DNA of 32,987 nucleotides from an uncultured Lachnoclostridium sp. (GTDB taxonomy: Bacteria > Bacillota > Clostridia > Lachnospirales > Lachnospiraceae): NCBI GenBank assembly GCA_947565985.1, contig CANOID010000019.1, forward strand, positions 1-32,987, read 5' to 3'. This document shows, piece by piece, positions 4,841 to 32,742 of this stretch. Positions within the stretch are counted from its first letter, which is position 1, and each line of letters opens with the position of its first letter. The notes under the pieces are model-generated. The model was not told the origin of the DNA. It ran no database searches and saw nothing but the letters and a program-made list of their open reading frames with translations. A program made the position numbers and the translations under genes.

Positions 4841-5782
4841 ATGGCAGGTGTAAAGAAAAGTTTTGTACGAGAAAAAAAGATATATTGTGGCAAAGAATAC
4901 TTAGAAATTGATGTAGTTCATGTAACTAATACACCAGAAGCAGGAAAAGTTAAAAAAGAAACAAGTAGTCCTAAACAAAAAAATCTAAATGATAAGAGAA
5001 GCAAGAGACGGTTTGTACAGATAGCCAATACTAATTTTGGTTCAGAGGATTTACATATATCAGCAACATACAACGACAAATATCTTCCTGTCAACTTAAA
5101 AGAAGCAGAAAAGAATATACATAATTTTTTAGACAGAGTAAAAAGGAAAATGAAGAAAGAGACAGGAAAAGACCTAAAATATATGATTGTTACAGAATAT
5201 ACCCCAGAAGTAGAAAATAAAGATTATCAACAGATGGTCTTAGATGGAATGGAAGATAAGAGCAATAAGGCAGTAAGAATACATCATCACATTATAATAA
5301 ATGGCGGCTTGAATCGTGATGATTTGGAACTTCTGTGGAGCAGGACACGTATTAACTGGAAAAAGGCTAAAGACCCAGATTACAGAAAGGGTATAGACTA
5401 TTTAGGTTTCGTAAACTGTGACAGATTACAGCCTAACGAGAATGGCATAGAAGGGTTAGTAAATTACATAAATAAGCGTAAAAAGGGTTGTAAGAAGTGG
5501 AGTACCTCTATGAATCTGGAAAAACCAAAGGTAAAGAAAAACGATAGCAAATACAGTTATAAAAAGATATGTATGTTAGCAAAGACACCAGAGGATAAAG
5601 AGTATTGGAGAAAAATGTATAAAGGTTATGAACCTACAAAGATAGACTTCCAGTACAACGACTATACGGGATGGAATGTGTATTTGAAAATGCGGAAAGT
5701 GAGAGAAAAATATGAGAAACAACAAATTTGTGACCGATTCGGACACAAAACTCAAGCAGCAGTATCAAAACAAACAGAATAA
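4841..5782 (+). CDS. rep: HUH-endonuclease replication protein (G2P/ORF2-type Rep)
   Basis: The ATG at 4841 is set by AAGGAG at seven bases upstream, giving 313 aa; the frame opens earlier but without a ribosome site. Three rolling-circle Rep motifs appear in order. Motif 1 is 'FGSEDLHISATYND' (about 67-80). Motif 2 is the metal-binding His-hydrophobic-His in 'VRIHHHIIINGG' (about 141-152). Motif 3 carries the likely nicking tyrosine in 'GLVNYINKR' (about 203-211). Such Reps nick one strand at the origin and stay covalently linked to the 5' end to prime rolling-circle or conjugative-type replication. It heads the operon running through parA/parB, behind the SOS-type promoter. The last 71 bases overlap the resolvase gene and contain a parS-like palindrome. 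Confidence 0.75.
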   Translation: MAGVKKSFVREKKIYCGKEYLEIDVVHVTNTPEAGKVKKETSSPKQKNLNDKRSKRRFVQIANTNFGSEDLHISATYNDKYLPVNLKEAEKNIHNFLDRVKRKMKKETGKDLKYMIVTEYTPEVENKDYQQMVLDGMEDKSNKAVRIHHHIIINGGLNRDDLELLWSRTRINWKKAKDPDYRKGIDYLGFVNCDRLQPNENGIEGLVNYINKRKKGCKKWSTSMNLEKPKVKKNDSKYSYKKICMLAKTPEDKEYWRKMYKGYEPTKIDFQYNDYTGWNVYLKMRKVREKYEKQQICDRFGHKTQAAVSKQTE

Positions 5783-6356
5783 TGCGAGGGGGCAACATTT
5801 TGAAAGAGAGATTCTAGCAGGATGCAGAATGTATAGAGAGCTAGGAATAGCAGTCATAGATAAAACACCTGAACCGTTTAAAGTATCAAAAAAGAACAAA
5901 GATGGAGTTTTTATAGGACGCTTTAGTACACCAGCACAACCAGACTTTCAGGGAACACTAAGAAATGGACGCTCGATAGTGTTTGAGGCTAAAAGCACAG
6001 GAAAAGACAGAATGACAAGAAATGTACTTACAGCTACACAGATGGAATTATTAGAAATACATAGCCAATTAGGGGCGGTGTGTGGTGTATGTGCAAACAT
6101 TCAGAATGATTTTTTCTTTATACCTTGGAGCATATGGAAAGATATGAAATATATATATGGTAGACAGTACGTACAGCCAGAAGATGTAAAAGAATACAAA
6201 ATAAGGTTTGATGGTGCAGTACATTTCCTAGATAAGATGCTTTCTGTTGAAGCTAAAGAACTAAAAAGAATGGGCATGGGAGAAATCTCTAATTCTTTAA
6301 AGGATAGGTCATATTTAAAGAAAAGTATTTTTGAATTGAAAGATGGGTGTTTATGA
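5712..6356 (+). CDS. recU: RecU-like Holliday-junction resolvase
   Basis: The 214-aa product begins inside rep (71-nt overlap); the ATG at 5712 lies downstream of a purine-rich stretch. It shows the PD-(D/E)xK nuclease core of RecU: a start helix 'NARGQHFEREI', the acidic residue in 'AQPDFQGTL' (about 76-84) and 'SIVFEAKST' (about 90-98, E-x-K). The rest is the RecU-like beta-sheet ('MTRNVL', 'FFFIPWSIW'). Family members resolve Holliday junctions in recombination and replication and are often phage-encoded. The first 12 residues lie on the parS-like site at 5729-5747 ('VTDSDT'). A later start would remove this part without harming the fold, so the start is moderately certain. Confidence 0.7.
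   Translation: MRNNKFVTDSDTKLKQQYQNKQNNARGQHFEREILAGCRMYRELGIAVIDKTPEPFKVSKKNKDGVFIGRFSTPAQPDFQGTLRNGRSIVFEAKSTGKDRMTRNVLTATQMELLEIHSQLGAVCGVCANIQNDFFFIPWSIWKDMKYIYGRQYVQPEDVKEYKIRFDGAVHFLDKMLSVEAKELKRMGMGEISNSLKDRSYLKKSIFELKDGCL
5729..5747. repeat. parS-like palindrome, copy 1 (in the rep/recU overlap)
   Basis: TGTGACCGA-T-TCGGACACA is a 9-1-9 inverted repeat with one mismatch; flanking TT/AA extend the symmetry. It lies where rep and the resolvase gene overlap, so the same bases serve two reading frames as well as the palindrome. Confidence 0.7.
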
Positions 6357-6637
6357 ATGTAGATGGATTATCAGGAACAGGAATACCATATTTAAACATG
6401 ATAAAAAAAGCACTACCAAAGGAAGAACCAAAGAAAAAGAAATTTAAAAATTGTAGGCTGACAGATATTGACCCAAAAACTAAAAAGCCACGTCTCAAAA
6501 AAGGTGTAAGCATGGATAGAGCGATTGAAGTCCTGTATATGTTTGAAAATACAGGTGTGTTGCCTAATCAAATTGAAGATATGAAGCAAACCATAGAAAA
6601 TCAAAGGCATCGTATTTTAAAACTAGAAGATTGGTAG
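6353..6637 (+). CDS. Small basic hypothetical protein
   Basis: The ATG at 6353 overlaps the resolvase stop as ATGA, which indicates translational coupling; a GTG at 6347 is possible but less likely. The 94-aa product has a Lys-rich stretch ('KEEPKKKKFKN'), then 'DPKTKKPRLKKGVSMDRAIEVLYMFENTGVLPNQIEDMKQTIENQRHRILKLE' with a C-terminal helix. I do not recognise a named family. Similar short basic proteins sit between recombination and methylase genes in Clostridia phages. Confidence 0.5.
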   Translation: MNVDGLSGTGIPYLNMIKKALPKEEPKKKKFKNCRLTDIDPKTKKPRLKKGVSMDRAIEVLYMFENTGVLPNQIEDMKQTIENQRHRILKLEDW

Positions 6638-6652
6638 AAAGAGGTGACAGCA

Positions 6653-7921
6653 TTGCAGGAATTGACACTAGGAAGCTTATTTGATGGTATTGGTGGATTC
6701 TGTTATGCAGCTCAACTTACAGGTCGTATAAAGCCTGTATGGGCTGCTGAAATAGAACAAAATTGTATAAATATCACAAGATACCATTTTCCAGAAGTAA
6801 TGCACGTTGGAAGTGTCACAGAGTTAAAAGGGGATGAAATACAGCCTGTAGACATAATTACTTTTGGAAGTCCATGTCAAGATTTAAGTGTTGCAGGAAA
6901 GAGAAAAGGGTTAAAAGGCAGCAGGTCAGGATTATTTACGGAGGCTATAAGAATTATTGATGAAATGAGGTTATCAACAAATGGAAAATACCCAACGTTT
7001 ATTATATGGGAAAACGTTCCCGGTGCTTTTTCATCACGAGGTAAACAAGATTTTAAAGCCGTGCTTGAAAAAATCACAAAAACCCATATTCCAATGCCTA
7101 CAAGTGGTAGATGGGCAAGTGCAGGAATGGTACGAGGGGCGGCAGTTGACACAGCTTGGCGAGTGCTTGACGCTCAATTTTGGGGAGTTCCCCAACGTAG
7201 AAAAAGAATCTACCTTGTCGGAGATTTTAGAGGACAACGTGCCGGAGAAATACTCTTTAAGTCCGAAAGCGTGCTTAGGCATTCTGAAAAGAGCACAGAG
7301 CAGAAACAAGAAATTGCCAGACAACTTGCGGATAGCGTTGGAACAGAAAATACAAGAAAAGCATATGGAATAAACGCAAAAGCTATCATCATAGACGAAG
7401 AACGTACAGGCACACTATCTACAAATTGCGGAAGTTCAGCAAGCAGGAACATTGTAGCGATAGAAAAGAAAAATGTCATACCATTGCGTGATGAAGTGAC
7501 ACGAAATAAAAATAATCATGGACTAGGGGTTGGAAAAATATCAGACCCATGCCCAACACTTACAGCAACAGATATACATAAAGTGTTCTACGAAGCGTAT
7601 CAGCATAGCGGATATAGAAAAAGTGATACAAGCGGAACAATTACAACAGTACAAAATGATTCAGTGAGAGGTAATACGCCTTTAATAGTGCAGACTGATA
7701 GAAAGACATTTGAATTAAATCAACATGGTGGATATAAAGAATCAGGAATGAATGGCACTCTAAGGGCATCAGGCGGAGATTATGGCGGTGGTTCAGAAAC
7801 AATCATAACAGAAAAATATAACGTAATAGATGTTCTAAAAAAAGGTAACAACAAAGGTAACATACATTATACGTCGTTTAACACCTATCGAATGCGAACG
7901 ATTACAAGGTTATCCAGATAA
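6653..7921 (+). CDS. DNA cytosine-C5 methyltransferase, frameshifted (catalytic part)
   Basis: The best start is TTG 6653, five bases after AAGAGGTGA; GTG 6644 lies within that site. The frame shows C5-methylase motifs in order: I 'LFDGIGGF' (SAM binding), IV 'GSPCQDLS' with the nucleophile cysteine, VI 'WENVPGAF' and VIII 'QRRKRIYLVG'. A long target-recognition stretch with repeated 'HGGYKESG' / 'HSGYRKSD' elements follows. It then runs off into unrelated residues from about 7844 and stops at 7921. Motifs IX and X are encoded one frame over, down to 8114. Removing one A from the A7 run at 7837-7843 restores a 486-aa methylase. As read, the enzyme lacks the SAM-closing C-terminus and is probably inactive, unless the run is a sequence error or a phase-variable tract. 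Confidence 0.8.
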   Translation: MQELTLGSLFDGIGGFCYAAQLTGRIKPVWAAEIEQNCINITRYHFPEVMHVGSVTELKGDEIQPVDIITFGSPCQDLSVAGKRKGLKGSRSGLFTEAIRIIDEMRLSTNGKYPTFIIWENVPGAFSSRGKQDFKAVLEKITKTHIPMPTSGRWASAGMVRGAAVDTAWRVLDAQFWGVPQRRKRIYLVGDFRGQRAGEILFKSESVLRHSEKSTEQKQEIARQLADSVGTENTRKAYGINAKAIIIDEERTGTLSTNCGSSASRNIVAIEKKNVIPLRDEVTRNKNNHGLGVGKISDPCPTLTATDIHKVFYEAYQHSGYRKSDTSGTITTVQNDSVRGNTPLIVQTDRKTFELNQHGGYKESGMNGTLRASGGDYGGGSETIITEKYNVIDVLKKGNNKGNIHYTSFNTYRMRTITRLSR

Positions 7922-8114
7922 CTGGACTAAGTATGGTGCAGATAGTAAATGTATAAGCGATTCAGCACGTTATAGAGCAATAGGCAATAGTATATGTATC
8001 TACTGTGCAAAAAGAGTATATGAGGGTATTTTAGACGTATTAGAAAGGGAAGATTATGGCAAAGAAGAAAAGAAAAACAGTACCATACAGGCAGCAGTCA
8101 GAGATAACCTATAA
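7839..8114 (+). pseudogene. Detached C-terminus of the cytosine methyltransferase
   Basis: In the +1 frame relative to the methylase, this stretch is open from just after a TAA at 7836-7838 to TAA 8112-8114. It encodes motif IX 'RRLTPIECERLQGYPDNW' and motif X 'RYRAIGNSI', the expected end of a C5-methylase. It has no start or ribosome site of its own. It overlaps the following gene by 59 nt. It belongs with the frame ending at 7921. Confidence 0.75.
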
Positions 8115-8361
8115 TAAGTACAAGCCAAACAGGAAAGCAAGGCGAGCAGGAATTAAGCCAGAGAAGCCACCAGAAGAAAAGAAAGAGAAAAAAACGATAT
8201 CAAAATTGACAATATTAAGTGAAAGTGTTTGTAGGGCAAGAAAACTAACAAAAAAGATTACACCTTTAGGGATGACTTACAAAGAGTACATAGAGTTTTT
8301 AAAGGAAAGACAACAAGAGCTTAGGAAAAATGCTCACTGGCAATGCAGTGTAAAAAAATAA
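8056..8361 (+). CDS. Small Lys/Arg-rich hypothetical protein
   Basis: The ATG at 8056 has AAAGGGA eight bases upstream and lies within the methylase C-terminal frame. The 101-aa product is extremely basic: 'MAKKKRKTVPYRQQ', 'KPNRKARRAG', then 'KPPEEKKEKK'. A short helical C-terminus ('MTYKEYIEFLKERQQELRKNAHWQC') follows. It is probably a nucleic-acid-binding or disordered adaptor. No family is recognised. Confidence 0.5.
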   Translation: MAKKKRKTVPYRQQSEITYNKYKPNRKARRAGIKPEKPPEEKKEKKTISKLTILSESVCRARKLTKKITPLGMTYKEYIEFLKERQQELRKNAHWQCSVKK

Positions 8362-8385
8362 AAATTTAAACAGGGGGAAAAAACA

Positions 8386-9141
8386 ATGAAAACTATTGCG
8401 ATTATTAACATGAAAGGCGGATGTGCCAAAACTACTACAACTATAAACATGGGGTACATATTAGCCAAGGACTACGACAAGAGGGTATTACTTATTGATA
8501 ACGATAAACAGGGCAATCTTTCCAAGACTTGTGGTGTATGGAGCTATGACAAGCCAAGTCTTGCGGATGTGATGACTGGGGAAGAAAAGATAAGTGATAT
8601 AATGCAAAAAGCCAGTATAATGCCTAACATTGAAGTTATTCCTGCAAATATGCACTTACTTACAGCGAACCTTGCAGTGATAAAGGATGATGAAAAAGAA
8701 CAGGCAACAATTATTTCTAAGGAATTAGAAAAAGTAAAAGAAAGGTTTGATTATTGTATTATTGACTGTCCGCCTGATATTAATATATCTGTTATAAATG
8801 CTCTTGTGGCATCAGATGAAGTCATTATACCAGTTAAAATTGATGGTTATGCCTTTGAGGGTATGGACGAGCTAGAGGAACAAATAAATAATGCAAAGGT
8901 ATTAAATCCGAAGTTAAAGCTTAGAGGTTGTCTTGTAACTATGTACTATAATCGTGATGTATGTATGCAAGGCAAGACATGGCTACAAAATCAGCATTAC
9001 CCAATATTTAAAACACATATCAGACGTACAGAAAAAGCAGATGAAGCAACCTTTACCAATGAAAGCCTTATTGAATACTCTCCACGTTCTGGTGCAGCCA
9101 AAGATTACAAAGCGTTTGTACAAGAATATTTAGAAAAATAA
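8386..9141 (+). CDS. parA: ParA-type partition ATPase
   Basis: The 251-aa product is a complete ParA/Soj-like deviant-Walker ATPase without an N-terminal HTH. Walker A' is 'KGGCAKTT' (residues 10-17) with the signature lysine, the A' strand is 'LLIDNDKQGN' (35-44) and Walker B is 'DYCIIDCPP' (122-130). Such proteins form ATP-dependent dimers on DNA and move ParB-bound replicons. An AGGGGGA ribosome site precedes the ATG. It is followed by the intergenic parS-like palindrome (9145-9163), a small gene and parB: a parABS locus with its centromere between the two genes. In a phage genome this indicates low-copy extrachromosomal maintenance or a repurposed segregation or regulatory role. Confidence 0.92.
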   Translation: MKTIAIINMKGGCAKTTTTINMGYILAKDYDKRVLLIDNDKQGNLSKTCGVWSYDKPSLADVMTGEEKISDIMQKASIMPNIEVIPANMHLLTANLAVIKDDEKEQATIISKELEKVKERFDYCIIDCPPDINISVINALVASDEVIIPVKIDGYAFEGMDELEEQINNAKVLNPKLKLRGCLVTMYYNRDVCMQGKTWLQNQHYPIFKTHIRRTEKADEATFTNESLIEYSPRSGAAKDYKAFVQEYLEK

Positions 9142-9144
9142 AAA

Positions 9145-9163
9145 TGTGTCCGAATCGGGCACA
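9145..9163. repeat. parS-like palindrome, copy 2 (intergenic, after parA)
   Basis: TGTGTCCGA-A-TCGGGCACA begins three bases after the parA stop codon and is the only copy outside coding sequence. Its place between parA and parB is the classic position of a partition centromere, and is the main reason for reading the whole family as ParB sites. Confidence 0.75.
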
Positions 9164-9165
9164 AA

Positions 9166-9204
9166 ATGAAATATAGGGGTAAAGAAAATAAATGGGTAAA
9201 ATAA
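9166..9204 (+). pseudogene. Remnant of a YopX-like N-terminus
   Basis: Three bases after the parS-like palindrome, an ATG opens a 12-codon frame reading MKYRGKENKWVK and then stop. This is the typical N-terminus of YopX proteins (compare 'MKYRGLSLN...' at 3496). The rest of the gene is gone, and its tail overlaps the start of the next gene. It probably marks a deletion or recombination scar, though so short a match could be chance. Confidence 0.4.
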
Positions 9205-9479
9205 AACGTGAATTAGAATATCAAGACCTTAAAAATAAGCTCTCTGAAATAGGTTTTGAATACAACAAAGATGCAAAAGGAAAAAAAGGGTATATAAAAT
9301 GTTTTCATGATGACATTTATTATTTTTGGGTTACAGTTAGTTTCGATGATAAAAAATTGTATTTATACAAAGAGTATGATGTTGGTGGCTGCTTGTGTGA
9401 CATAAGCTACGATATTCCACAAAAGGTACTAAATCATTGTGATGCTTTCATTGATTGGTTAGACCAAATGGTAGGTTGA
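9192..9479 (+). CDS. Small hypothetical protein between parA and parB
   Basis: The 95-aa product has an ATG preceded by AGGGGT, at a long spacing of about 11 bases. It appears to be a mixed alpha/beta fold: an N-terminal helix ('LEYQDLKNKLSEIGFEY'), beta strands ('DIYYFWVTVSFDDKKLYLYKEYDV'), two cysteines in 'GGCLCDI' and a C-terminal helix ending 'WLDQMV'. I do not recognise it. Its position inside the par locus may reflect insertion rather than a partition role. Confidence 0.5.
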   Translation: MGKIKRELEYQDLKNKLSEIGFEYNKDAKGKKGYIKCFHDDIYYFWVTVSFDDKKLYLYKEYDVGGCLCDISYDIPQKVLNHCDAFIDWLDQMVG

Positions 9480-9504
9480 AAAATAAAACAGAGGTGATTT
9501 AATA

Positions 9505-10914
9505 TTGGCAGAAAAGAAGAAAAAATTTGACATAACTAGCCTTTTGAATGTAAAATCAAAGGAGATATTACAGCCGGATGAGATAATAGAGAATGACAAT
9601 AGTTTTGATGTAGTCATGATTGATATTTATGATTTAATACCAGATAAAGATAACTTCTATTCCACAGAAAATATTGACGAACTGGCAGCGGCTATTGAAC
9701 TATCTGGCTGCATTGAACAAAATCTGGTTGTAAAACCAGAAACACATGGAAAGTATGAAGTAATAGCTGGACATCGTAGAAGATTAGCAGCCTTAAAATT
9801 AGTGAAAGATGGCAAGGAAGAGTACAGAAAAGTGCCATGTCGTATCAAGAAAGAATCAGACGAAATAAAAGACCGTTTAAGTCTTATTCTTACTAATGCA
9901 ACAGCAAGGCAGCTTACAGATTGGGAGAGGATAAAGCAGGCTGAAGAACTAAAAGAAATATTGATAGAATATAAAAAAGCACTACAAACAGAGAATAAGG
10001 ATAAACCAAAAAAAGAACAGGAGAGAATCGGACGCATTCGTGAAATCGTGGCGGATATGCTTAATACATCCACTACCCAGATAGGACGTATGGAAGCAAT
10101 TAGTAATAATCTGTCACAGGATTTTAAGGACGAACTAGAAAAGGGCAGCATTAATATTTCAACTGCACATGAACTTAGTAGGCTTGATGAAGATGGACAG
10201 AAAAAAGCTTATGAGCAGTACGAAGAAAAGGGCGAGCTGCATATAAAAGATGTAAAGCCAGAAGAAAAGAAAGAACTTACAAATGAACAGGCAGAAAAAG
10301 TACAGGAAGCAATAAAAGACGCTATAAAAGGCGAAGTAAATAGAGAAATATTCAAGGCAAAAGGTAATGTGGCAGCAGTTGAAAAGATACTAAGAAAATA
10401 TTTTAGCAATTCTTTTCAAGGAAAAAAATTTGATGGTGGTAGATATATATATCGTTTTCAAGCAGATGGCATTACTATTATTGATACTGCTAAATGGGGG
10501 AATTTCTTAGTTAAATATTCAGACCTTGCACAAATCATAGTATTAATGATTGCAAATAATCAACTGTTATATGATAATAATGTCATAGAAGAAACTAAAG
10601 AAAAGAAAACAGATATATCTATTGATGAACCACAGATAGCAAGATTTAAAACTAAAGAAAAGGAGAACACATCTTTATCAGATGAACCAAAAGCAGATGA
10701 TTATTCAGATAATATACCTGAACCACTAGAAAAAGGTTTAGACTTTACGACGTGGATAAAAGAAAAGTACAAAAAAGGACAATACACTATGGTACAAAAT
10801 GAGATAAGGGCAGTTGTAGCATTACAACCGGAAATAGAAAGTGCAATAGCAAATGCTCTTTCTGTATGGATTATGTGCAAAACAGAAGAGTATAAAAGGT
10901 ATTTAGAAAGTTAA
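9505..10914 (+). CDS. parB: ParB-type partition / DNA-binding protein
   Basis: Translation starts at the TTG at 9505 behind GAGGTG. The 469-aa product has the ParB/Spo0J N-terminal nucleotide-binding domain ('IDIYDLIPDKDNFYS', 'LAAAIELSGCIEQNLVVKP', then box II 'AGHRRRLAAL' near residues 88-97, where GERRxR is usual). It then has 'NATARQLTDWERI' and a central HTH region (about 175-225, 'STTQIGRMEAI', 'INISTAHELSRL'). A long charged linker and a distinct C-terminal domain (about 400-469, 'DFTTWIKEKYKKGQYTMVQNEI') follow. ParB proteins bind parS, use CTP to clamp and spread, and engage ParA. It is longer than Spo0J (about 280 aa) but typical of phage/ICE ParB relatives. The five palindromes in this window are its likely targets. 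Confidence 0.88.
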   Translation: MAEKKKKFDITSLLNVKSKEILQPDEIIENDNSFDVVMIDIYDLIPDKDNFYSTENIDELAAAIELSGCIEQNLVVKPETHGKYEVIAGHRRRLAALKLVKDGKEEYRKVPCRIKKESDEIKDRLSLILTNATARQLTDWERIKQAEELKEILIEYKKALQTENKDKPKKEQERIGRIREIVADMLNTSTTQIGRMEAISNNLSQDFKDELEKGSINISTAHELSRLDEDGQKKAYEQYEEKGELHIKDVKPEEKKELTNEQAEKVQEAIKDAIKGEVNREIFKAKGNVAAVEKILRKYFSNSFQGKKFDGGRYIYRFQADGITIIDTAKWGNFLVKYSDLAQIIVLMIANNQLLYDNNVIEETKEKKTDISIDEPQIARFKTKEKENTSLSDEPKADDYSDNIPEPLEKGLDFTTWIKEKYKKGQYTMVQNEIRAVVALQPEIESAIANALSVWIMCKTEEYKRYLES

Positions 10915-10943
10915 AAAATAGAATAGTTGGAGGATGGCATACC

Positions 10944-11423
10944 ATGACAAATTCAGAAGTAGAAGCAATTTTGAGATTTTATAAATGGATTGACCTAGAT
11001 ATTAAAATAGCGAATGAATGGTTAAAGCAATACGAAGCTGGATATAATCCTTTAGGTGCTGTCCTTTATGATGGTATGCCACATGGAAAAAAGCTAGGTA
11101 ATAGTACAGCCGTACTTGCTATGAAACTTGCAGAAGCAGATACGAAAGAAAACATAGAAATCCTAGAAAAACGCATTAAACAACTAAAAAATTTAAGAAC
11201 ACAGATTTTTAAAGAAATTTCCTCGCTTATAATGCCATATAAAGTAATTATATATAATCTATACCTTAGAGGACAAAAATGGGATTATGTGGCAAAAATG
11301 ATAGGCTACAGTGTGCGTCAGGCTAAAAATATAAGGTGCAAAGCCTTAAATATTCTAGGTGAAAAGCTAGAAAATAATCAAAATATAGCACAGAGTGATA
11401 TCATAAAAGAAATTTTTAAATAA
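10944..11423 (+). CDS. ArpU/RinA-like late transcription activator
   Basis: The 159-aa product has GGAGG at ten bases before its ATG. The N-terminal half is helical ('EAILRFYKWIDLDIKIANEWLKQYE', then 'TKENIEILEKRIKQLKNLRTQIFKEISSL'). The C-terminal part ('KVIIYNLYLRGQKWDYVAKMIGYSVRQAKNIRCKALNILGEKL', about 97-140) is a sigma-70-region-4-like HTH. This matches the ArpU/RinA class of phage late activators, which end the early operon and switch on packaging and structural genes. Nine bases after its stop begins the first of two TTGCCC-repeat promoters, the likely target. A sigma-like DNA-binding role is established for the class; the specific target is my inference. Confidence 0.75.
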   Translation: MTNSEVEAILRFYKWIDLDIKIANEWLKQYEAGYNPLGAVLYDGMPHGKKLGNSTAVLAMKLAEADTKENIEILEKRIKQLKNLRTQIFKEISSLIMPYKVIIYNLYLRGQKWDYVAKMIGYSVRQAKNIRCKALNILGEKLENNQNIAQSDIIKEIFK

Positions 11424-11431
11424 GTTAAAGA

Positions 11432-11464
11432 TTGCCCACCATTGCCCGTTTTTTGTAGTATAAT
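11432..11464 (+). promoter_or_regulatory. Late promoter 1 (TTGCCC direct repeat + TATAAT)
   Basis: A perfect -10 TATAAT (11459-11464) lacks a -35 at the usual spacing. Instead ATTGCCC occurs twice in a 10-bp phase (TTGCCC at 11432-11437 and 11442-11447), with 11 nt to the -10. The whole block recurs at 15167-15199 with the same spacing. Helically phased repeats replacing the -35 point to an activator-dependent promoter, most simply driven by the ArpU-like protein encoded just upstream. Confidence 0.7.
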
Positions 11465-11491
11465 ACTAATAGGCAAAATACATATATAAGA

Positions 11492-11532
11492 CGGCAGCAG
11501 AATGTTAATAACAGTTCTGCTGCCGCTTTTTG
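11492..11532 (+). terminator. Intrinsic terminator directly after late promoter 1
   Basis: CGGCAGCAGAA (11492-11502) pairs perfectly with TTCTGCTGCCG (11515-11525) around a 12-nt loop and is followed by CTTTTTG. It is a strong 11-bp G+C-rich stem. It starts about 20 nt after the expected transcription start of late promoter 1, so most transcripts would stop after 60-70 nt unless read-through is enabled. Confidence 0.8.
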
Positions 11533-11638
11533 TATATTTTTACATTTTGTACATTTTTTAAAAATCCTAAAATATATAATAGTTCTAAAGCCATTTATGA
11601 CAGTAAAGCAGAGAAACAAACAAAAAGGGGGTGATATC

Positions 11639-12415: not shown

Positions 12416-12582
12416 ATTAGCTATGAGAAATACTGGTGAAATTTTGGGAAATACGAAGCGTCAAAAGGTACTGTGAGCCGCTTTTACGGCCCGGGCGGCC
12501 CGTGACCCCAAAACTCGTCTAGCCGTCAGGGGAAAACCACACTTCCAAAATACCAGAAAATTTTTTAAGGGGGGTAGTATTT
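12416..12582. other. GC-rich cos-site candidate
   Basis: This 167-nt non-coding stretch contains a block (12472-12532) with about two-thirds G+C by my count, in an otherwise strongly AT-rich genome, including CGGCCCGGGCGGCCCG. Imperfect inverted repeats flank it: CTGGT...TTTTGGGAA (12433-12450) and TTCCAAAATACCAG (12543-12556). It lies immediately upstream of the Nu1-like and GpA-type terminase genes, as lambda cos precedes nu1 and A. I infer a cohesive-end cutting and binding site. A structured RNA is the main alternative. Confidence 0.5.
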
Positions 12583-15166: not shown

Positions 15167-15199
15167 TTGCCCACCATTGCCCGTTTTTTATGCTATAAT
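15167..15199 (+). promoter_or_regulatory. Late promoter 2 (TTGCCC direct repeat + TATAAT)
   Basis: TTGCCC at 15167-15172 and 15177-15182, then an 11-nt gap to TATAAT (15194-15199), here as an extended TGCTATAAT. The block from AAAGATTGCCC to the T-run is nearly identical to that at 11427-11454. It stands in the gap before the portal gene and would add a second input of late transcription for the head and tail genes. Confidence 0.7.
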
Positions 15200-18041: not shown

Positions 18042-18425
18042 ATGGCAGCAGGAAAAGAATTATTAGGAGTATATACCCCGAAAATGGTACACGCTGGTGA
18101 CTATCCAGTTGTGACCGAATCGGGCACAGTTTCAAATGATGGTGATATTTTGGAGCTTATGCCTGTTGTGCTTAATGAAGATGGCAAAATAGCAGCAGTT
18201 ACGGCTGATACTATAGAAAATGTATATGGTCTTTCGGCACAACCAGCAAATGCAGGAGAAGAAATTGTAATTTATCTTACTGGTAAGTTTTTTGCTAATG
18301 CACTTTCGTTGCCAGAAGGTATAACAGCAAAAGACCTTAAAACACCACTTAGAAAACGCAATATTTTCTTAGTTAATATAGATGAAAGCGAAACCACGAA
18401 TACTGTAGTTTCAGATAAAGAATAA
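18042..18425 (+). CDS. Head decoration protein (lambda gpD-like)
   Basis: The 127-aa product lies between protease/scaffold and major capsid, as in lambda. It reads 'LLGVYTPKMVHAGDYPVVTESGTVSNDGDILELMPVV...AVTADTIENVYGLSAQPANAGEEIVIYLTGKFFANALSL', the usual HDPD-family beta-rich pattern. Such trimers stud the expanded capsid and stabilise it against DNA pressure. AAGGGGGAT precedes the ATG. The parS-like palindrome copy 3 lies in codons 24-29. Confidence 0.85.
   Translation: MAAGKELLGVYTPKMVHAGDYPVVTESGTVSNDGDILELMPVVLNEDGKIAAVTADTIENVYGLSAQPANAGEEIVIYLTGKFFANALSLPEGITAKDLKTPLRKRNIFLVNIDESETTNTVVSDKE
18110..18128. repeat. parS-like palindrome, copy 3 (in the decoration-protein gene)
   Basis: TGTGACCGA-A-TCGGGCACA lies in the N-terminal part of the head decoration gene and encodes V-T-E-S-G-T there. 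Two symmetric positions are mismatched. TCG is an uncommon serine codon in this genome, so conservation of the DNA, not just the peptide, is indicated. Confidence 0.7.
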
Positions 18426-22777: not shown

Positions 22778-22790
22778 GGGGTGAAAAAAG

Positions 22791-23315: not shown

Positions 23316-23316
23316 T

Positions 23317-23340
23317 AAGCACGCAAAGTCGTGTTTTTTT
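23317..23340 (+). terminator. Weak terminator-like hairpin after the tube gene
   Basis: AAGCACG (23317-23323) pairs with CGTGTTT (23330-23336) around CAAAGT, and seven Ts run from 23334 to 23340. The stem is short and includes a G-T pair, so termination would be partial. It may lower expression of chaperone and tape measure relative to the abundant sheath and tube. Confidence 0.5.
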
Positions 23341-23364
23341 ATTGCGTAATTTTGGAGGTAAATC

Positions 23365-23757
23365 ATGGAAGATATAAAAAGAGAAGCAGTTGAAAGTAAA
23401 AACAAAAATGAATTAGCAGTTGTGTCCGAATCGGACACAAAAATACCAGAGGGTGCATATGTACTTAAATTGGCTAAACCTTATACATATGAAGATAAAA
23501 CCTACAATGAATTTGTATTTGATTTCGAAAGCTTAACAGGTATAGATATGATAGACATTGAAACTGAAATGGCAGCAATGGGTGAATTTGCCATATCACC
23601 AGAAATTTCACTATCATTTTTATCTAGGATGGCAGCAAAGGCAGCAAAAGTAGACAGTGACGCAATATTACACCTTCCATTCCGTGAATTTGGAAAGGTG
23701 AAAAATAGAACACAGAATTTTTTACTAGATACGGGTTTCACAGAGAAAGTCCTATAA
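23365..23757 (+). CDS. Tail assembly chaperone, short form (P2 gpE-like)
   Basis: The 130-aa product has GGAGGT before its ATG. After an N-terminal 30-residue segment carrying the parS-like site, it reads 'YVLKLAKPYTYEDKTYNEFVFDFESLTGIDMIDIETEMAAM...LSFLSRMAAKAAKVDSDAILHLPFREFGKVKNRTQNFLL', matching the TAC_7/P2 gpE class. Such chaperones coat the tape measure during tail assembly. Seven codons before that last Leu-rich end comes the T TTT TTA slippery site that gives the long form (to 23897). Confidence 0.82.
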   Translation: MEDIKREAVESKNKNELAVVSESDTKIPEGAYVLKLAKPYTYEDKTYNEFVFDFESLTGIDMIDIETEMAAMGEFAISPEISLSFLSRMAAKAAKVDSDAILHLPFREFGKVKNRTQNFLLDTGFTEKVL

Positions 23758-23897: not shown

Positions 23898-23928
23898 GCA
23901 CTTGTATAGAAAACAGGTGCTTATTTTA
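23893..23928 (+). terminator. Terminator-like hairpin before the tape-measure gene
   Basis: AATAAGCACTTGT (23893-23905) pairs along 13 positions (one G-T) with ACAGGTGCTTATT (23913-23925) around a 7-nt loop, then TTTA. It overlaps the stop codon of the frameshift product. It could attenuate transcription into the tape measure gene, or block translational read-in. Confidence 0.55.
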
Positions 23929-23949
23929 TGTCTGGAAATGAGGTGAGCA

Positions 23950-27636: not shown

Positions 27637-27850
27637 TACCTATACAACTATATCTGGTGATACATGGGATATCATAGCATACAAAGTATATGATGATGAA
27701 ATGTATATGGATGTTTTAATCAAGGCAAATTTAGAATACAAAGACATTTATATATTTCCAGCAGGAGTAACTCTTGTTATACCAGAAATTGACCTTGAGG
27801 TTTCAGATACACTTCCACCGTGGAAACAAGGAGTAATAGCAGATGAGTGA
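27629..27850 (+). CDS. Tail protein X (LysM-like)
   Basis: The ATG at 27629 lies eight bases inside the end of the tape-measure gene, behind AGGGAGAG. The 73-aa product 'YTTISGDTWDIIAYKVYDDEMYMDVLIKANLEYKDIYIFPAGVTLVIPEI' is a P2 gpX-like protein with a LysM-type fold ('GDTWDIIAYKVY'). It may bind peptidoglycan or form the baseplate hub collar. It overlaps gene D by eight bases. Confidence 0.85.
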   Translation: MFNTYTTISGDTWDIIAYKVYDDEMYMDVLIKANLEYKDIYIFPAGVTLVIPEIDLEVSDTLPPWKQGVIADE

Positions 27851-28907
27851 TAAAACACTAGCAAGACGCACAGCAGTAAAATTATATTTTAAAGGTTCAG
27901 ATATATCAAAAAATCTTGCAAAATATCTGCTATCCTTGTCATTTACTGATAAAGAAGAAGATGAAACAGACGAAATTAGCATATCACTTGATGATAGAGA
28001 TGGCAAATGGATTAAAGATTGGTTAAATACACAAAAAGGTAAGGCAAAAGAAAAAAGAGCATTTAAAGGTACAGAAATTCATGCTCAAGTTATTCAAAAA
28101 AATCTATATTCTGATGGAAAAGACAAAGTGCTTGACTGTGGTGTTTTTGAAATAGACAGCGTTGACTATTCAGGACCACCACAGAAATTAACAATCAAAG
28201 CAACATCAATATCATATAAATCAAAGCTAAGACAGACAAAGCATAATAAAACATGGGAAAATACTACGTTAAAAAACATAGCAAAAAAGATATCAAAAAA
28301 TAGTAATCTGAAACTTATGTATCTATCTAGTTCTAATCCTACATATAAACGTAGGGAGCAAAGAGATATGACAGATATAGCATTTTTGAAGCGTCTTTGT
28401 AAGCGTGCAGGGATAAGCCTTAAAGTCACATCAAAGACTATAGTATTATTTGATGCAGCGGACTTCGAGAAGAAAAAGGAAGTTAAAAAGATAAAAGCTG
28501 GAAAAGGAAATATAATTAACTATAGTTTTTCAACGAAAACCGCAGATACAGCTTATTCATCATGCCATGTAGTTTATACAGACCCATATACAAAAAAGAA
28601 GATAGAAGCAACATATAAACCAGCAAATGCAAATTCTGACGGACAAACTTTAGAAATAAAGCAAAAAGTGACAAGTGTTGCAGAAGCAAAAGAACTGGCA
28701 AGAAAATCTTTAAGGGCAAGAAATAAAAAAGAAACAACAGCAGAATTTACACTAGTTGGTGATGTGGACTATGTAGCAGGAATAACAGTAAGAGTTTATG
28801 GTTTTGGTGAATTTAATGGAAAATATATAGTAGAACAGGCAACTCATAATATTACTGGGGGCTACAAAGTTCAGATAAAATTGCGTAGCTGTCTGGAGGG
28901 GTATTGA
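27843..28907 (+). CDS. Baseplate hub protein, P2 gpD-like
   Basis: The 354-aa product begins 'ARRTAVKLYFKGSDISKNLAKYLLSLSFTDKEEDETDEISISLDDRDGKWIKDW', has a middle 'FEIDSVDYSGPPQKLTIKATSI' and 'RREQRDMTDIAFLKRLCKRAGISLKVTSKTIVLFDAADFEKK', and ends 'ITVRVYGFGEFNGKYIVEQATHNITGGYKVQIKLRSCLEGY'. This is the phage late-control/GpD (gp27-like) hub family. It forms the ring at the tube tip that holds the spike. Overlaps of a few bases at both ends show tight coupling. Confidence 0.87.
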   Translation: MSDKTLARRTAVKLYFKGSDISKNLAKYLLSLSFTDKEEDETDEISISLDDRDGKWIKDWLNTQKGKAKEKRAFKGTEIHAQVIQKNLYSDGKDKVLDCGVFEIDSVDYSGPPQKLTIKATSISYKSKLRQTKHNKTWENTTLKNIAKKISKNSNLKLMYLSSSNPTYKRREQRDMTDIAFLKRLCKRAGISLKVTSKTIVLFDAADFEKKKEVKKIKAGKGNIINYSFSTKTADTAYSSCHVVYTDPYTKKKIEATYKPANANSDGQTLEIKQKVTSVAEAKELARKSLRARNKKETTAEFTLVGDVDYVAGITVRVYGFGEFNGKYIVEQATHNITGGYKVQIKLRSCLEGY

Positions 28908-29311
28908 TGATACGTAAATATGATGACAATGACATAAGAGAACTTTATGACATGGTACGTATTGGTATAGTAAGCAGTGTCAACGAAGAAAAAATGACAG
29001 CAAGAGTTAAAATAGAAGAACAAAACATCGTAACTGGGGATTTAAAAATAGTGCAAAATACACCTTTCGTTATTATGGAATGGAAAGACGGGTCAAAATG
29101 GAACTATGAAGCTGACTATGCACAACATAATAGAAATTTAGGCATAGGTGATAGATACAAAGAAGAATACCCAGACATCTTGCATACATGGAAAGATACA
29201 TCTGATAGGGTTCTAAAGATATATCCGTGGATGCCATATATTGGACAGTGGGTATTATGTCTTTTTAAACCGAATGGTGAAGGTGATGGTTTTATTATAG
29301 GGGGTATCTAA
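28907..29311 (+). CDS. Baseplate spike protein V (gpV-like)
   Basis: I choose the ATG at 28907, one base overlapping the previous TGA and behind GGAGGGG; a TTG just before is possible. The 134-aa product has 'VRIGIVSSVNEEKMTARVKIEEQN', an OB-fold start typical of P2 gpV/gp5-type spikes, and ends 'PWMPYIGQWVLCLFKPNGEGDGFIIGGI'. It lacks an obvious long C-terminal beta-helix, so the actual needle tip may be short or supplied by another protein. Confidence 0.75.
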   Translation: MIRKYDDNDIRELYDMVRIGIVSSVNEEKMTARVKIEEQNIVTGDLKIVQNTPFVIMEWKDGSKWNYEADYAQHNRNLGIGDRYKEEYPDILHTWKDTSDRVLKIYPWMPYIGQWVLCLFKPNGEGDGFIIGGI

Positions 29312-29814
29312 TGGAAAAGAAAATAATAGCTAAACCATTACAAAGTCAAAAAAAGACAATAACTAGCTCACTACATAATATACATGATGTAGAAAAAAAG
29401 AAAACAAAAAAGAAAGCTGGAAAAATTGGAACACTTGGAGATATTGTGTTTACGGTATCATCTAAAACAATACGTACATTTGATGGACTAAAAATCGAAA
29501 GTAAGACAGAATACGCAAAGCATACAAGGCATAATAAAAAACCTTTATTAGAATTTCAATACAACGATACTGACACAGCAAGTTTTACTATGTATTTATC
29601 TGTATTGCTAGGTGTGAATCCTAGAAAAATGCAGAAAAAAATAGACAAATATCGTAAAGAGGGAAAACTACTTACTCTTATTATTGGTGGTAAACGGTAT
29701 GGTAAAAAATGGGTAATAACAGACCATTCAAAGGAATATGAAAAAATTGATAATAAAGGTAATTTATGGATAGCAAAAAGCAGTGTTTCTTTACAGGAAT
29801 ATCCAGAAAGATAG
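29311..29814 (+). CDS. Tail protein U (P2 gpU-like)
   Basis: The ATG overlaps the stop of the V-like gene (TAATG). The 167-aa product has a basic N-terminal extension (about 1-40, 'KPLQSQKK', 'KKKTKKKAGK'). A gpU-like domain follows: 'GTLGDIVFTVSSKTIRTFDGLKIESKTEYAKHTRH', 'LEFQYNDTDTASFTMYLSVLLGVNPRKMQKKIDKYRKEGKLLTLIIGGKRYGKKWVITDHSKEYEKIDNKGNL'. In P2, gpU joins the tube tip to the tape measure. Here it lies after V rather than after T, a module order different from P2. Confidence 0.7.
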   Translation: MEKKIIAKPLQSQKKTITSSLHNIHDVEKKKTKKKAGKIGTLGDIVFTVSSKTIRTFDGLKIESKTEYAKHTRHNKKPLLEFQYNDTDTASFTMYLSVLLGVNPRKMQKKIDKYRKEGKLLTLIIGGKRYGKKWVITDHSKEYEKIDNKGNLWIAKSSVSLQEYPER

Positions 29815-29820
29815 GACTAT

Positions 29821-30162
29821 ATGGCGTACATGGTAGACACAACAAAAGAAAGTGAAATAAATATTGCTCCAACAACAGTATACGAAGAAGTTATACAAAA
29901 CCTTTATTTTTTGTATTCGTCAGTAGAATATGATATTCCACTTGACAGAGAATTAGGGTTAAGTGGAACATATATAGATAGAATGATTGAAACGGCAGAG
30001 GCATTAGTCGTGGCTGATATTTATGACAAAACAGAAGAATATGAGCCAAGGGCAGAAATTGTAAATATTAGTTTTGAAGCTGATTATCAAATGGGTGTCT
30101 TAAAGCCTATAGTGGAGGTGGAAATAAAAGATGAATACGACAATGAAGAAGATACCAGATAA
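29821..30162 (+). CDS. Baseplate wedge protein W (gp25-like)
   Basis: The 113-aa product has 'EVIQNLYFLYSSVEYDIPLDRELGLSGTYIDRMIETAEALVVADIYDKTEEYEPRAEIVNISFE', matching the gpW/gp25 family with its invariant 'EPR' before a beta strand. It nucleates the sheath and forms the wedge core with J. ATG 29821 or ATG 29830 may be used. The last 32 bases overlap gene J. Confidence 0.85.
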   Translation: MAYMVDTTKESEINIAPTTVYEEVIQNLYFLYSSVEYDIPLDRELGLSGTYIDRMIETAEALVVADIYDKTEEYEPRAEIVNISFEADYQMGVLKPIVEVEIKDEYDNEEDTR

Positions 30163-31273
30163 TTTGCCGGAAGTTGAGTTTGTAGACACAAACACAGAAA
30201 CACTTGTAAGTGAACTTATAGCTGGTTACGAACAAACTACAAACAGAACGCTTTATCCTGCCGACCCTGTTAGGGCATTTATATTATGGTTAGCAGATGT
30301 GATTATACAGGAAAGAATATTAATCAATGAATCAGCAAAACAAAATTTGCCAAGATATGCAGAGGGCAAGAACTTAGATTCTTTGAGTGAAATATTCCAC
30401 AACACACCAAGGCTACAACCTGCAGCAGCAAAAACAACATTAAGATTTTATCTTACAAAGACACTGGATGATGATTTTATAATAACAGATACAATGGAAA
30501 CAACTGTTGACAGTGAAATAAATTTTGAAACAACAGAGTATATAATTTTTAAAGCTGGTACAGATTATGCTGACGCTAAAGCAGTATGTACAACAGTCGG
30601 GGAAATTGGCAATGGGTTTATGCCCGGGCAAATTAATAAGCTAGTATCAGATGAATTTTTATATTTTAAAAAAGTGGAAAATATCACAGAAACAGCAGGA
30701 GGCAGTGAAGAAGAACAAGACACAGCATATTATAATCGCATGAGAGAAAGCGAAGAAAGTTATACAACAGCAGGACCATCAGGAAGTTATATATACCATG
30801 CAAAAAGTGTTTCTTCACAAATTAGTGATGTATCAACGGATAGTCCAGAACCGGGAATAGCAGAAATAAGAATCATGTTACATGATGGGCAGTTGCCTGA
30901 TAAAGAATTACTGGACAAGGTAGAAAATTATCTAAGTGCAGATGATATAAGACCAATGACCGATAAGGTGATAGTTGCAGCACCCAATACAATAGAATTT
31001 GATATAAATATAAAATATTTTATTTCAAGAGAAAAAGAATCAAGCACTAATGACATTAAGCGAGCAGTATCATTGGCAGTAGAAAATTATATATCGTGGC
31101 AGACATCGAAAATGGGACGAGATATTAATCCGTCCTATTTTAATGCTCTGCTTATGGAATCTGGTATAAAAAGGGTTGAAATAACCGCACCTATATTTAC
31201 ACAGATACCAAAAGGGAGTGTGGCAGTAATAAGAGAAGAAAGTGTAACTTTCGGAGGTACAGAAGATGAATAA
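30131..31273 (+). CDS. Baseplate wedge protein J (gpJ/gp6-like)
   Basis: The ATG at 30131 lies behind GGAGGTGG in the end of the W-like gene. The 380-aa product has 'LYPADPVRAFILWLADVIIQERILINESAKQNLPRYAEGKNLDSLSEIFHNTPRLQPAAAKTTLRFYLTKTL', then 'GEIGNGFMPGQINKLV', 'GGSEEEQDTAYYNRMRESEESYTTAGPSGSYIYHAKSVS' and 'RDINPSYFNALLMESGIKRVEITAP', all hallmarks of Baseplate_J. It forms the wedge ring of the contractile baseplate with W and I. Confidence 0.92.
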   Translation: MNTTMKKIPDNLPEVEFVDTNTETLVSELIAGYEQTTNRTLYPADPVRAFILWLADVIIQERILINESAKQNLPRYAEGKNLDSLSEIFHNTPRLQPAAAKTTLRFYLTKTLDDDFIITDTMETTVDSEINFETTEYIIFKAGTDYADAKAVCTTVGEIGNGFMPGQINKLVSDEFLYFKKVENITETAGGSEEEQDTAYYNRMRESEESYTTAGPSGSYIYHAKSVSSQISDVSTDSPEPGIAEIRIMLHDGQLPDKELLDKVENYLSADDIRPMTDKVIVAAPNTIEFDINIKYFISREKESSTNDIKRAVSLAVENYISWQTSKMGRDINPSYFNALLMESGIKRVEITAPIFTQIPKGSVAVIREESVTFGGTEDE

Positions 31274-32093
31274 AATAAAAGACGCTGACTTTATGGCGAA
31301 GTTTCCACCAGTATTAAAAAAAGATAAATCAATGGCTGCTTTGGGGCGGATTATAGCAAATGAATTACACATCACAGCAAATGAAATAAAGAAAAATATT
31401 ATATATCCAAATATAGATGAATTATCTGAAAAGTGGCTTGACATACTCGCCTATGACCTTCACGTTGATTGGTATGACTATGACTATCCAGTGGAAACGA
31501 AGCGAGCAATCATTAAAGACAGCGTAAAAATACATCAAAAACTAGGCACAAAATATGCAGTTGAAACGGCATTGCGAAATGTCTATAAAGATGCAACGGT
31601 GTCTGAATGGTTTGAGTATGATGGAAAACCTTATTATTTTAAGATAAATATAGATACTAGCGGAAGTAGTCTACAGGAGAACGACTATTTTGATATATTG
31701 CGAAAAGTTCAGTTTTACAAAAATCTCCGTTCACATTGCGATGGTATACATATAAACCTAAATATCAACAGTGCTATTATAAATATTGCTGCTAAAACTG
31801 GTGTAGGCATGATACTAAAAGTCAAGCCAAAAACACAGGATAAGATAGAAGTCAAACAAAAAGTAGATATTATAGCATTGGGAACTGTTGGTGAAACACT
31901 TAAAGTAAAACCACTACTGGCAAAACAAATGCAAGTACAGGCAAAACAAAAAGTTGCAGCAGGAATATTATCAGGTAATGTTATTAAAATTAGGGCGAAA
32001 ATACCAGAAAAGCTAATGGTTAAGGCAACAATAAAAAACAGCAGTATGTCAAAAATTGGCAACAATCTGTTAGTGAAAGGGGATGTAAGGTAA
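31266..32093 (+). CDS. Tail protein I with repetitive C-terminal extension
   Basis: The 275-aa product starts 8 bases inside J (GGAGGT upstream). Residues 1-165 match P2 gpI ('LSEKWLDILAYDLHVDWYDYDYPVETKRAIIKDSVKIHQKLGTKYAVETALRNVYKDATVSEWFEYDGKPYYFKINID', then 'NLRSHCDGI'). Residues about 168-275 are not in P2 gpI. They form about four imperfect repeats of 25-30 residues around 'G..LKVKP.....VKQKV' ('MILKVKPKTQDKIEVKQKV', 'TLKVKPLLAKQMQVQAKQKV', 'VIKIRAKIPEKLMVKATI', 'NLLVKG'), probably beta-structured. Protein I connects the wedge to the tail fibres, so the extension may be a fibre docking platform. Confidence 0.85.
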   Translation: MNKIKDADFMAKFPPVLKKDKSMAALGRIIANELHITANEIKKNIIYPNIDELSEKWLDILAYDLHVDWYDYDYPVETKRAIIKDSVKIHQKLGTKYAVETALRNVYKDATVSEWFEYDGKPYYFKINIDTSGSSLQENDYFDILRKVQFYKNLRSHCDGIHINLNINSAIINIAAKTGVGMILKVKPKTQDKIEVKQKVDIIALGTVGETLKVKPLLAKQMQVQAKQKVAAGILSGNVIKIRAKIPEKLMVKATIKNSSMSKIGNNLLVKGDVR

Positions 32094-32094
32094 T

Positions 32095-32742
32095 ATGGCA
32101 GATACACAGTATTTTACAATTGTGACCGATTCGGGCACAAAAGAAATGCTTAAGGCAGTCAACGAAGAAAGAAAAGTCACTCTTATTCATTTTGCGGTAG
32201 GGGATGGCGGTGGTAATTACTATGAGCCAGAAACCACAATGACAGAGCTAAAAAACGAGGTTTGGCGTGGAAACATTGGTTCTTGTAAAATTAATGAAGA
32301 ATCCGAAAATATATTAATCATAGAAGCCGTTATACCTGCTGATGAGGGTGGTTTTACAATCCGTGAAATGGCAGTTTTTGATGATAACAACACAATGATT
32401 GCCATATGTAATACACCTGATACAGCAAAAGTACGTGTAACAGATGGTGTAGTACAACAATTGCATTTGCAGATGGAAATTTTGTTAAATAATAAAAATT
32501 CTGTACAATTACTAGTTGACCCAAACATCGTAACGGCAACAAAAAAAGATATACAAGCTCTGCAATTACAAATAGATGGTATGGCAAAAATCGTATCTAT
32601 AATTGCTAAATATTCATATGATGAAGATGATAAACGTATAACAAACCTATTGCCATTTGACTATAACAACGGAACACTCTCTGTTCCTGATGGCATGGGA
32701 CATTTCGATGGCAACAAACTAGTGCTTACAGACCTAGCCTAA
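32095..32742 (+). CDS. Tail fibre / collar protein, N-terminal-domain type
   Basis: The ATG at 32095 follows gene I at once. The 215-aa product has 'YFTIVTDSGTKEMLKAVNEERKVTLIHFAVGDGGGNYYEPETTMTELKNEVWRGNI' and 'AVIPADEGGFTIREMAVFDDNNTMIAICNTPDTAKVRVTDGVVQQLHLQMEI', a clear DUF3751-type tail-collar fibre N-terminal domain, which attaches to the baseplate. It ends after a short coiled coil and a 'LLPFDYNNGTLSVPDGMGHFDGNKLVLTDLA' tail. It therefore lacks the long shaft and receptor tip expected of a full fibre, which must be supplied by later genes. It carries parS-like copy 5. Confidence 0.82.
   Translation: MADTQYFTIVTDSGTKEMLKAVNEERKVTLIHFAVGDGGGNYYEPETTMTELKNEVWRGNIGSCKINEESENILIIEAVIPADEGGFTIREMAVFDDNNTMIAICNTPDTAKVRVTDGVVQQLHLQMEILLNNKNSVQLLVDPNIVTATKKDIQALQLQIDGMAKIVSIIAKYSYDEDDKRITNLLPFDYNNGTLSVPDGMGHFDGNKLVLTDLA
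32121..32139. repeat. parS-like palindrome, copy 5 (in the tail-fibre gene)
   Basis: TGTGACCGA-T-TCGGGCACA lies close to the 5' end of the tail-fibre gene, encoding V-T-D-S-G-T, where relatives usually read 'LTDAG'. It is the right-most of five copies, about 26 kb from the first. Confidence 0.7.

Follow-up and report, generated by a model that had tools for sequence, protein, structure and literature searches.

A Probable parS Palindrome Dispersed through Phage Genomes of Clostridia-Type Bacteria and Linked to an Adjacent ParB

Introduction

Partition systems of the ParABS type, represented by Spo0J/ParB and Noc, combine a ParA ATPase, a ParB protein with ParB_N and helix-turn-helix domains, and a palindromic site beside parAB. 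The same components are found in a 32,987-nt stretch of DNA from an uncultured Lachnoclostridium sp. (the window, meaning the whole stretch analyzed), which carries phage genes and five copies of a 19-bp palindrome, TGTGNCCGANTCGGNCACA, one of them between parA and parB. The letters of the palindrome are unlike those of the Spo0J parS, and in the multi-site phages described here the sites are spread genome-wide and lie inside structural genes. Judged from the sequences compared below, the locus is probably a ParABS system with dispersed ParB loading sites that would segregate or position free phage DNA.

The Sop system of N15 is similar in that it has several palindromes, inverted repeats that are separate from one another and dispersed in the genome of a temperate phage. 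N15 is a linear plasmid prophage, whereas the phages considered here often encode integrases, have sites in late structural genes, and use a different palindrome. In the available part of one study, the four N15 inverted repeats, IR1-4, were joined by the authors to make an array (PMC7205306). KorB of RK2 is a ParB-family clamp that, in the available text of PMC11790492, loads at separate short OB sites, a behavior that is predicted here; the same text places OB sites upstream of promoters and gives KorB a partner, KorA, whereas many of the present sites lie inside genes and the ParB has a dedicated ParA. Phage-borne parABS is also described in temperate cluster A actinobacteriophages such as RedRock, in which, according to the excerpt at hand of PMC7157519, it replaces the integration cassette, is expressed lysogenically, and has two loci, parS-L and parS-R, each with eight copies of an 8-bp direct repeat. 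In some cluster A phages, parABS and integration modules occur together (PMC11652158, available in part), so the coexistence of partition and integration is not new as such. A survey of ParB-CTPases covers, in its accessible part, phage ParB-like folds in general (PMC12704722). No printed description of this parS/ParB family was found in the literature covered, which leaves out most subscription papers and makes this weak evidence of novelty.

Results

Five Exact Copies of a Palindrome in the Window

The original prediction placed copies of the palindrome at 5729, 9145, 18110, 23421, and 32121, one of them 3 nt after parA and four inside the rep/recU, decoration, tail chaperone, and tail-fiber genes. 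All five positions were confirmed as exact matches to TGTGNCCGANTCGGNCACA, and their coordinates relative to the genes are as follows.

5729 to 5747: parS-like palindrome TGTGACCGATTCGGACACA, where the 3′ end of rep overlaps the 5′ end of recU
9145 to 9163: parS-like palindrome TGTGTCCGAATCGGGCACA, the junction site, starting 3 nt past the parA stop (9141)
18110 to 18128: parS-like palindrome TGTGACCGAATCGGGCACA, 68 nt into the head decoration gene
23421 to 23439: parS-like palindrome TGTGTCCGAATCGGACACA, 56 nt into the tail assembly chaperone gene
32121 to 32139: parS-like palindrome TGTGACCGATTCGGGCACA, 26 nt into the tail collar fiber gene

Shuffling predicts 0.01 copies, none of 100 shuffles reached five, and an unguided repeat search of the window returned the five palindromes as its top-ranked direct-repeat family, which rules out chance or low complexity as their origin. 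No sixth match occurs in the window up to 3 mismatches, so the claim that it holds no further relatives of the palindrome stands to that limit. An equivalent of the 5729 site, 17 nt into recU and exact or with 1 mismatch, is present in loci L008, L009, L214, L217, and L220.

The host assembly was scanned over 2,764,615 bases in 185 contigs; it is an estimated 87% complete, and the window makes up the whole of contig C19. Outside the window, TGTGNCCGANTCGGNCACA was matched at only two places, both with 3 mismatches, and the backward control pattern at three. The density in host DNA, which the original prediction had proposed checking, is therefore not similar, and the palindrome is ruled out as a host motif. 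It was also expected to be unlike the Spo0J-type parS, TGTTTCACGTGAAACA; the letters do differ, the phage palindrome does not belong to this chromosomal Spo0J/ParB class, and the host has an exact TGTTTCACGTGAAACA of its own, which lies on contig C33 at ~1 kb from an open reading frame (ORF) of the ParB family.

The Palindrome Accompanies ParB in Divergent Phages

Viral loci were chosen blind to the motif with a ParB-only query, a 31-sequence alignment (A1) that itself contains ParBs first found near the motif, and the best 80 of 186 relatives were analyzed. Between −700 and +300 of the ParB match, the best palindrome match had 0, 1, 2, or 3 mismatches in 14, 33, 14, and 10 of the 80 loci, respectively, and 4–7 in the other 9. 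A site with ≤3 mismatches of 16 defined bases is thus found near the parB start in 71/80 loci, compared with 5/1600 shuffled segments, or in 65/74 when each distinct segment is counted once. Other 1-kb stretches of the same loci reached this threshold in 37/1324 cases, which we read as dispersed copies. In 52 of the 71 loci the junction site starts 30–66 nt ahead of the ParB match, and in some loci the ParB reading frame starts at the site itself. Symmetric variants were found in which both half-sites are changed together (TGTGTCCAACTTGGACACA, TGTGTTCAATTTGAACACA, and CTTGACCGATTCGGACAAG); several of the poorer matches share the same architecture and are perfectly palindromic, with changes in both halves, for example TGTGTTCAATTTGAACACA. 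Some phages keep a single flavor of site per genome: all 7 sites of G032 are TGTCCGAWTCGGACA, and the 3 exact sites of G083 are TGCCCGAWTCGGGCA.

Whole records were available for 41 of the ParB-selected phages, and 32 of these contain the core site at ≤1 mismatch, 22 of them with two or more sites. Collections of phages and plasmids gave distant ParB matches only, in 7 and 6 records, respectively. Among the matches listed, the contigs on which the site and this ParB occur together bear titles of Clostridia-type bacteria, including Lachnospiraceae, Clostridiaceae, Oscillospiraceae, and Selenomonadaceae. Contigs of the isolate Petralouisia muris NM01_1-7b contain sites as well. Covariation between the ParB helix-turn-helix and the half-sites was not used as evidence because the pattern follows ancestry; as read from the listing of loci, some of those with a CCAA or TCAA half-site have Ala in AAEL-type motifs, and none of those with CCGA half-sites alone do.

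A second set of loci was selected with a major capsid protein query (alignment A2; best 80 of 506 relatives). Whole-record searches covered 33 of the 80: 18 records with this ParB family, 14 without, and G040, in which a distant ParB domain is accompanied by a single 1-mismatch site. The core TGNCCGANTCGGNCA was present at ≤1 mismatch in 17 of the 18 records with ParB, which together contain 50 sites, and in none of six records (G041–G046) that span the region upstream of terL yet lack parAB; the backward control pattern scored zero in all these records. Fisher tests, in which kinship is not corrected, gave 5e-5 for 17/18 versus 0/6 and 5e-6 for 17/18 versus the 2/14 obtained when fragments are included. 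One of the six, G042 (locus L329), keeps homologs of rep, recU, and ORF159, the putative regulator gene that follows parB, in order, with no parA or parB match and no site in 41.8 kb, and it comes close to a natural deletion. Among motif-selected records of ≥20 kb, 17/24 contain the ParB family.

The palindrome sits at the parA/parB junction of divergent ParB-selected phages at a frequency far above shuffles, changes symmetrically, and is absent from relatives that span the region but lack parAB; very probably, therefore, the ParB encoded next to it has this palindrome as its cognate parS. The linkage to parAB (71/80 loci) and the coinheritance with ParB (17/18 versus 0/6) are those of a ParABS system. 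The proposal of a candidate parS is therefore supported by sequence, as is the co-occurrence with this ParB type that was to be looked for in related phages.

Sites Written into Coding Sequence

The coding copies had been said to share their DNA, including the rare codon TCG, and this was borne out. Across 40 window ORFs, TCG makes up 4.6% of Ser codons and ACC 6.8% of Thr codons, and, given the peptide, the probability of the codon string lies between 3.6e-5 and 6.7e-5 (~5e-5) for each of the four coding copies. In motif-blind sets of relatives, the commonest-codon frequency at the site was 0.79–1.0 in 15 decoration gene sequences, compared with a mean of 0.70 at other conserved columns, and 1.0 in seven chaperone gene sequences, compared with 0.77 elsewhere. 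These sets left out sequences with <45% identity, identical sequences, those with <70% of the window gene length, and late-starting matches; no codon result was obtained for recU, where the alignment is gapped at the site, or for the fiber gene, represented by the window copy only.

Dispersal of sites inside structural genes extends to relatives. Another lineage has no match at the decoration and chaperone places but carries TGTGTCCGAATTGGTCACA in its tail-sheath gene, at a position where the sheath gene of the window is without a site. In 14 sheath sequences, one with a further mismatch, four degenerate site codons are fixed, of 14 fixed among 125 amino acid-invariant columns, a test that is not blind because the 14 were picked for carrying the site. 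Since the decoration and chaperone copies occur in one lineage and the sheath copy in another, different structural genes appear to have acquired their sites separately.

Spacing of the Sites

Successive sites in the window are separated by 3.4, 9.0, 5.3, and 8.7 kb, and those of G088 by 9.2, 8.0, 5.3, 9.1, and 5.9 kb. Gaps in multi-site phages are mostly 3–9 kb, which places most of the genome within a few kilobases of a putative loading site; gaps of 11–13 kb are also seen (G006 and G089), and copies are clustered in some loci, with three within ~115 bp in L057 and two 36 bp apart in L033. Minimum-gap probabilities were 0.007 for G032, 0.008 for G088, 0.010 for G084, 0.02 for G079, 0.049 for G006, 0.056 for G089 (six sites; 0.025 with the seventh), 0.057 for G002, 0.069 for the window, 0.18 for G001, and 0.20 for G069. 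Even spacing is no more than suggestive, since possession of several sites was the criterion for choosing these genomes, some of which are related by descent.

Integrases Are Common in ParB-Encoding Phages

A tyrosine or large serine recombinase-type integrase is encoded in 27/41 ParB-positive records (G036 is counted by a short frame at the record end), and 14/41 have neither type. In all 20 records with such a serine recombinase, its gene and parB are on opposite strands. The window, whose contig is incomplete and whose ORFs were scanned in part, shows no evident integrase.

Two of the phages are integrated in chromosomes. The G089:C3 prophage lies inside a 231.7-kb contig, with a serine integrase and helix-turn-helix repressor on the minus strand and parAB on the plus strand ahead of terL. 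An ABC-transporter ATPase gene is split by this prophage at a shared CCGACCGGGA (9903–9912 and 60218–60227). Its sites are at 18051, 25032, 34268, 39563, 43393, and 56739, with a 1-mismatch copy at 60177 (177–195 of L369) that is 22 bases from the right junction. The G088:C15 prophage has six sites, a serine integrase, and a helix-turn-helix repressor; it is flanked by two ABC-ATPase ORFs, the first of them short, and adjoins genes for ribosomal proteins L1 and L11 and nusG. In both prophages a 1-mismatch site is found near one end (60177 in G089:C3 and 18751 in G088:C15). Thus, parAB is carried in the lytic-direction operon of phages that often integrate.

parA, parB, and Neighboring Genes

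The scanned phage genes of the window are all on the plus strand, in the order rep, recU, DNA methyltransferase, ORF101, parA, site, ORF95, parB, and ORF159, followed by terminase, portal, protease, decoration, major head protein, and tail genes. Those that concern the sites are the following.

4811 to 5782, plus strand: replication initiation protein gene (rep), whose 3′ end holds the 5729 site (phrog_3584, 8e-73)
5712 to 6356, plus strand: recU-like Holliday junction resolvase gene, with the 5729 site in its 5′ end (Pfam RecU, 2e-14; phrog_843)
8386 to 9141, plus strand: parA, Walker-type partition ATPase, 251 aa (Pfam AAA_31, 7e-49; phrog_164 ParA-like partition protein, 1e-58)
9192 to 9479, plus strand: ORF95, between the junction site and parB, without a family match
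9505 to 10914, plus strand: parB, 469 aa, ParB_N and helix-turn-helix domains (Pfam ParB_N, 6e-8; phrog_4715, 3e-79)
10944 to 11423, plus strand: ORF159, putative transcriptional regulator, directly 3′ of parB (phrog_36, 5e-19)
18042 to 18425, plus strand: head decoration gene with a site (phrog_49, 1e-12)
23365 to 23757, plus strand: tail assembly chaperone gene with a site (phrog_3140, 2e-34)
32095 to 32742, plus strand: tail collar fiber gene with a site (Pfam Phage_tail_fib, 3e-46)

Both AAA_31 and phrog_164 identify ParA as a Walker ATPase of the partition type, and the ParB_N and helix-turn-helix architecture of ParB agrees with its Pfam, profile, and Foldseek matches. The ParB family profile matches Noc chains (1.5e-16) and also Spo0J and ParB chains. 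A predicted ParB model has a mean predicted local distance difference test score (pLDDT) of 70.6 and a predicted template modeling score (pTM) of 0.43, with block means of 75–97 across residues 41–250, and its best Foldseek folds are Noc, ParB, Spo0J, and KorB (8qa9/8qa8), with E values from 2.5e-8. No homolog of ORF95 was found beyond the window among 212 loci compared, and ORF95 was rejected on this ground as a general binder of the palindrome.

At 11432–11464 and 15167–15199, ahead of the terminase and portal genes, are two promoter-like elements that are nearly identical to each other, each with TTGCCC-N4-TTGCCC and then TATAAT; they are possibly late promoters for an ORF159-type regulator. 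Similar elements are present in L220, L035, and L371 and in none of eleven other loci tried. A promoter for parA was rejected, promoter-like sites being no commoner than in shuffles. Near the left end of the contig, at 141–182, are three direct copies of TTATCCACA, with a fourth just beyond; we take this to be the DnaA-box sequence, and the repeats are a possible replication origin.

Discussion

The identity of the palindrome as parS can be held with high confidence from the comparisons above; the purpose of the system is less certain, and its main rivals are late-gene control and plasmid-prophage upkeep. Ordinary plasmid-prophage partition as in N15, P1, or mycobacteriophage RedRock, in which the sites would be the centromere of a lysogenic plasmid, is on balance unlikely. 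It would account for the presence of ParABS with a replication initiator, for the DnaA-box-like repeats at 141–182, and for the 14/41 ParB-positive records without an integrase, the partly scanned window being likewise without an evident one. Absence of integration is not, however, a property of the ParB family overall (the window contig being incomplete), and such upkeep cannot be assumed, given that integrases are common (27/41), that two of the prophages sit in chromosomes, and that the operon with parAB runs in the lytic direction, unlike the lysogenically expressed parAB of RedRock (PMC7157519, in the excerpt at hand). The comparison with N15 made in the original prediction therefore holds only in part. 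Less likely again is that the sites serve mainly in transcription control in the manner of KorB of RK2, with clamps sliding over late promoters to delay, insulate, or help late transcription. Going by the title of a 2008 paper by Ravin, the N15 sop system reportedly facilitates late gene expression. Three window sites lie in late structural genes, a putative regulator follows parB, the stretch from the junction site to the decoration site contains the promoter-like elements at 11432 and 15167, and KorB silences at a distance as a sliding clamp (PMC11790492, available text). Such a role sits poorly with coding sites that are inside genes and away from recognized promoters, with positions that vary by lineage (decoration and chaperone versus sheath), and with the retention of ParA together with ParB.

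Two further explanations dispense with ParB as the partner of the palindrome. Dispersed repressor sites are known in mycobacteriophage L5, and ORF159 adjoins parB, so that the palindrome might be an operator of another phage protein, either a stoperator-like immunity site or a target of ORF159, to which ParB is merely linked. This is very improbable: G042 keeps rep, recU, and an ORF159 homolog but shows neither parAB nor site; L297 and L303 are ParB-positive loci that have sites but no ORF159 match (tblastn, 1e-3); and across divergent phages parB keeps its junction site. The case for ORF159 as the binder is weakened accordingly. Hardly credible is the notion that the repeats are a functionless by-product of a conserved VTDSDT-like peptide or of a small module that has spread. 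The four coding copies in the window do all read V-T/S-D/E-S-D/G-T in one frame, but the site codons are improbable given the peptide, other copies are noncoding or in other frames (CPNRTQ, CDRFGH, and CPNWSH), and the sheath copies, picked for carrying the site, keep the bases with a different peptide. Peptide constraint alone is ruled out by the codon tests on the window, decoration, and chaperone sequences, the sheath test being nonblind.

Several observations weigh against a general ParABS with dispersed sites for free phage DNA. The core site at ≤1 mismatch is missing from 9/41 ParB-selected whole records, although eight of the nine have a symmetric or near-symmetric variant and only G021 (L248) is without a clear junction site. 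A single site is found in 10/41 records, so dispersal is not general. With fragments included, two capsid-selected records without the ParB family do contain sites, G064 with one and G076 with four; both are among the eight of those 14 records that hold too little or no sequence upstream of terL, and the G076 contig starts at the decoration gene, which leaves the parAB region outside the record. Further short capsid-selected contigs with sites and without ParB (for example, L014, L290, and L292–L295) are fragments. Seven of the 24 motif-selected viral records (G066, G067, G068, G073, G076, G077, and G078) show no ParB_N domain, and one of them, G066, has two sites 49 bases apart; these seven may be either fragments or users of the ParB of another element. 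Most of the six records that lack parAB are more distantly related, and that comparison therefore does not remove the effect of shared descent. The ParB model is modest, and its TM-scores to known structures are low (TMq 0.14–0.23). Finally, an integrated prophage would need no partition system, and the proposed purpose therefore depends on an inferred free-DNA stage.

Under the favored reading, a ParABS system acting on free phage DNA, the palindrome would be recognized by ParB dimers through the helix-turn-helix domain, and ParB would load there as a CTP-dependent clamp and then spread, the coated DNA being moved or positioned on the nucleoid by ParA. We infer this binding, clamping, and spreading, and also the purpose, which would be segregation or positioning of extrachromosomal phage DNA, whether excised or newly infecting and replicating, rather than permanent upkeep of a plasmid prophage. 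Chromosomal ParB peaks extend 16 and up to 50 kb around parS (PMC7022226, available part), from which sites 3–9 kb apart could be expected to cover a whole phage genome. A more specific proposal, which we advance tentatively and at somewhat less than an even chance, is that integrating temperate phages of Bacillota tile their genomes with ParB loading sites, partly within structural-gene codons, for use in the lytic phase. After excision or infection, the replicating genome would be coated end to end with ParB clamps, and this coating, if it occurs, would serve to spread or compact phage DNA or to time its expression, and not to maintain a lysogenic plasmid.

The analysis defines a probable parS sequence and a ParB family, and such ParB/parS pairs might serve as DNA labels. 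It also raises the question of why integrating phages keep a partition system in a lytic-direction operon and centromeres in capsid and tail genes. If ParB does tile the genome during the lytic cycle, these phages would have a segregation system that works during phage production.

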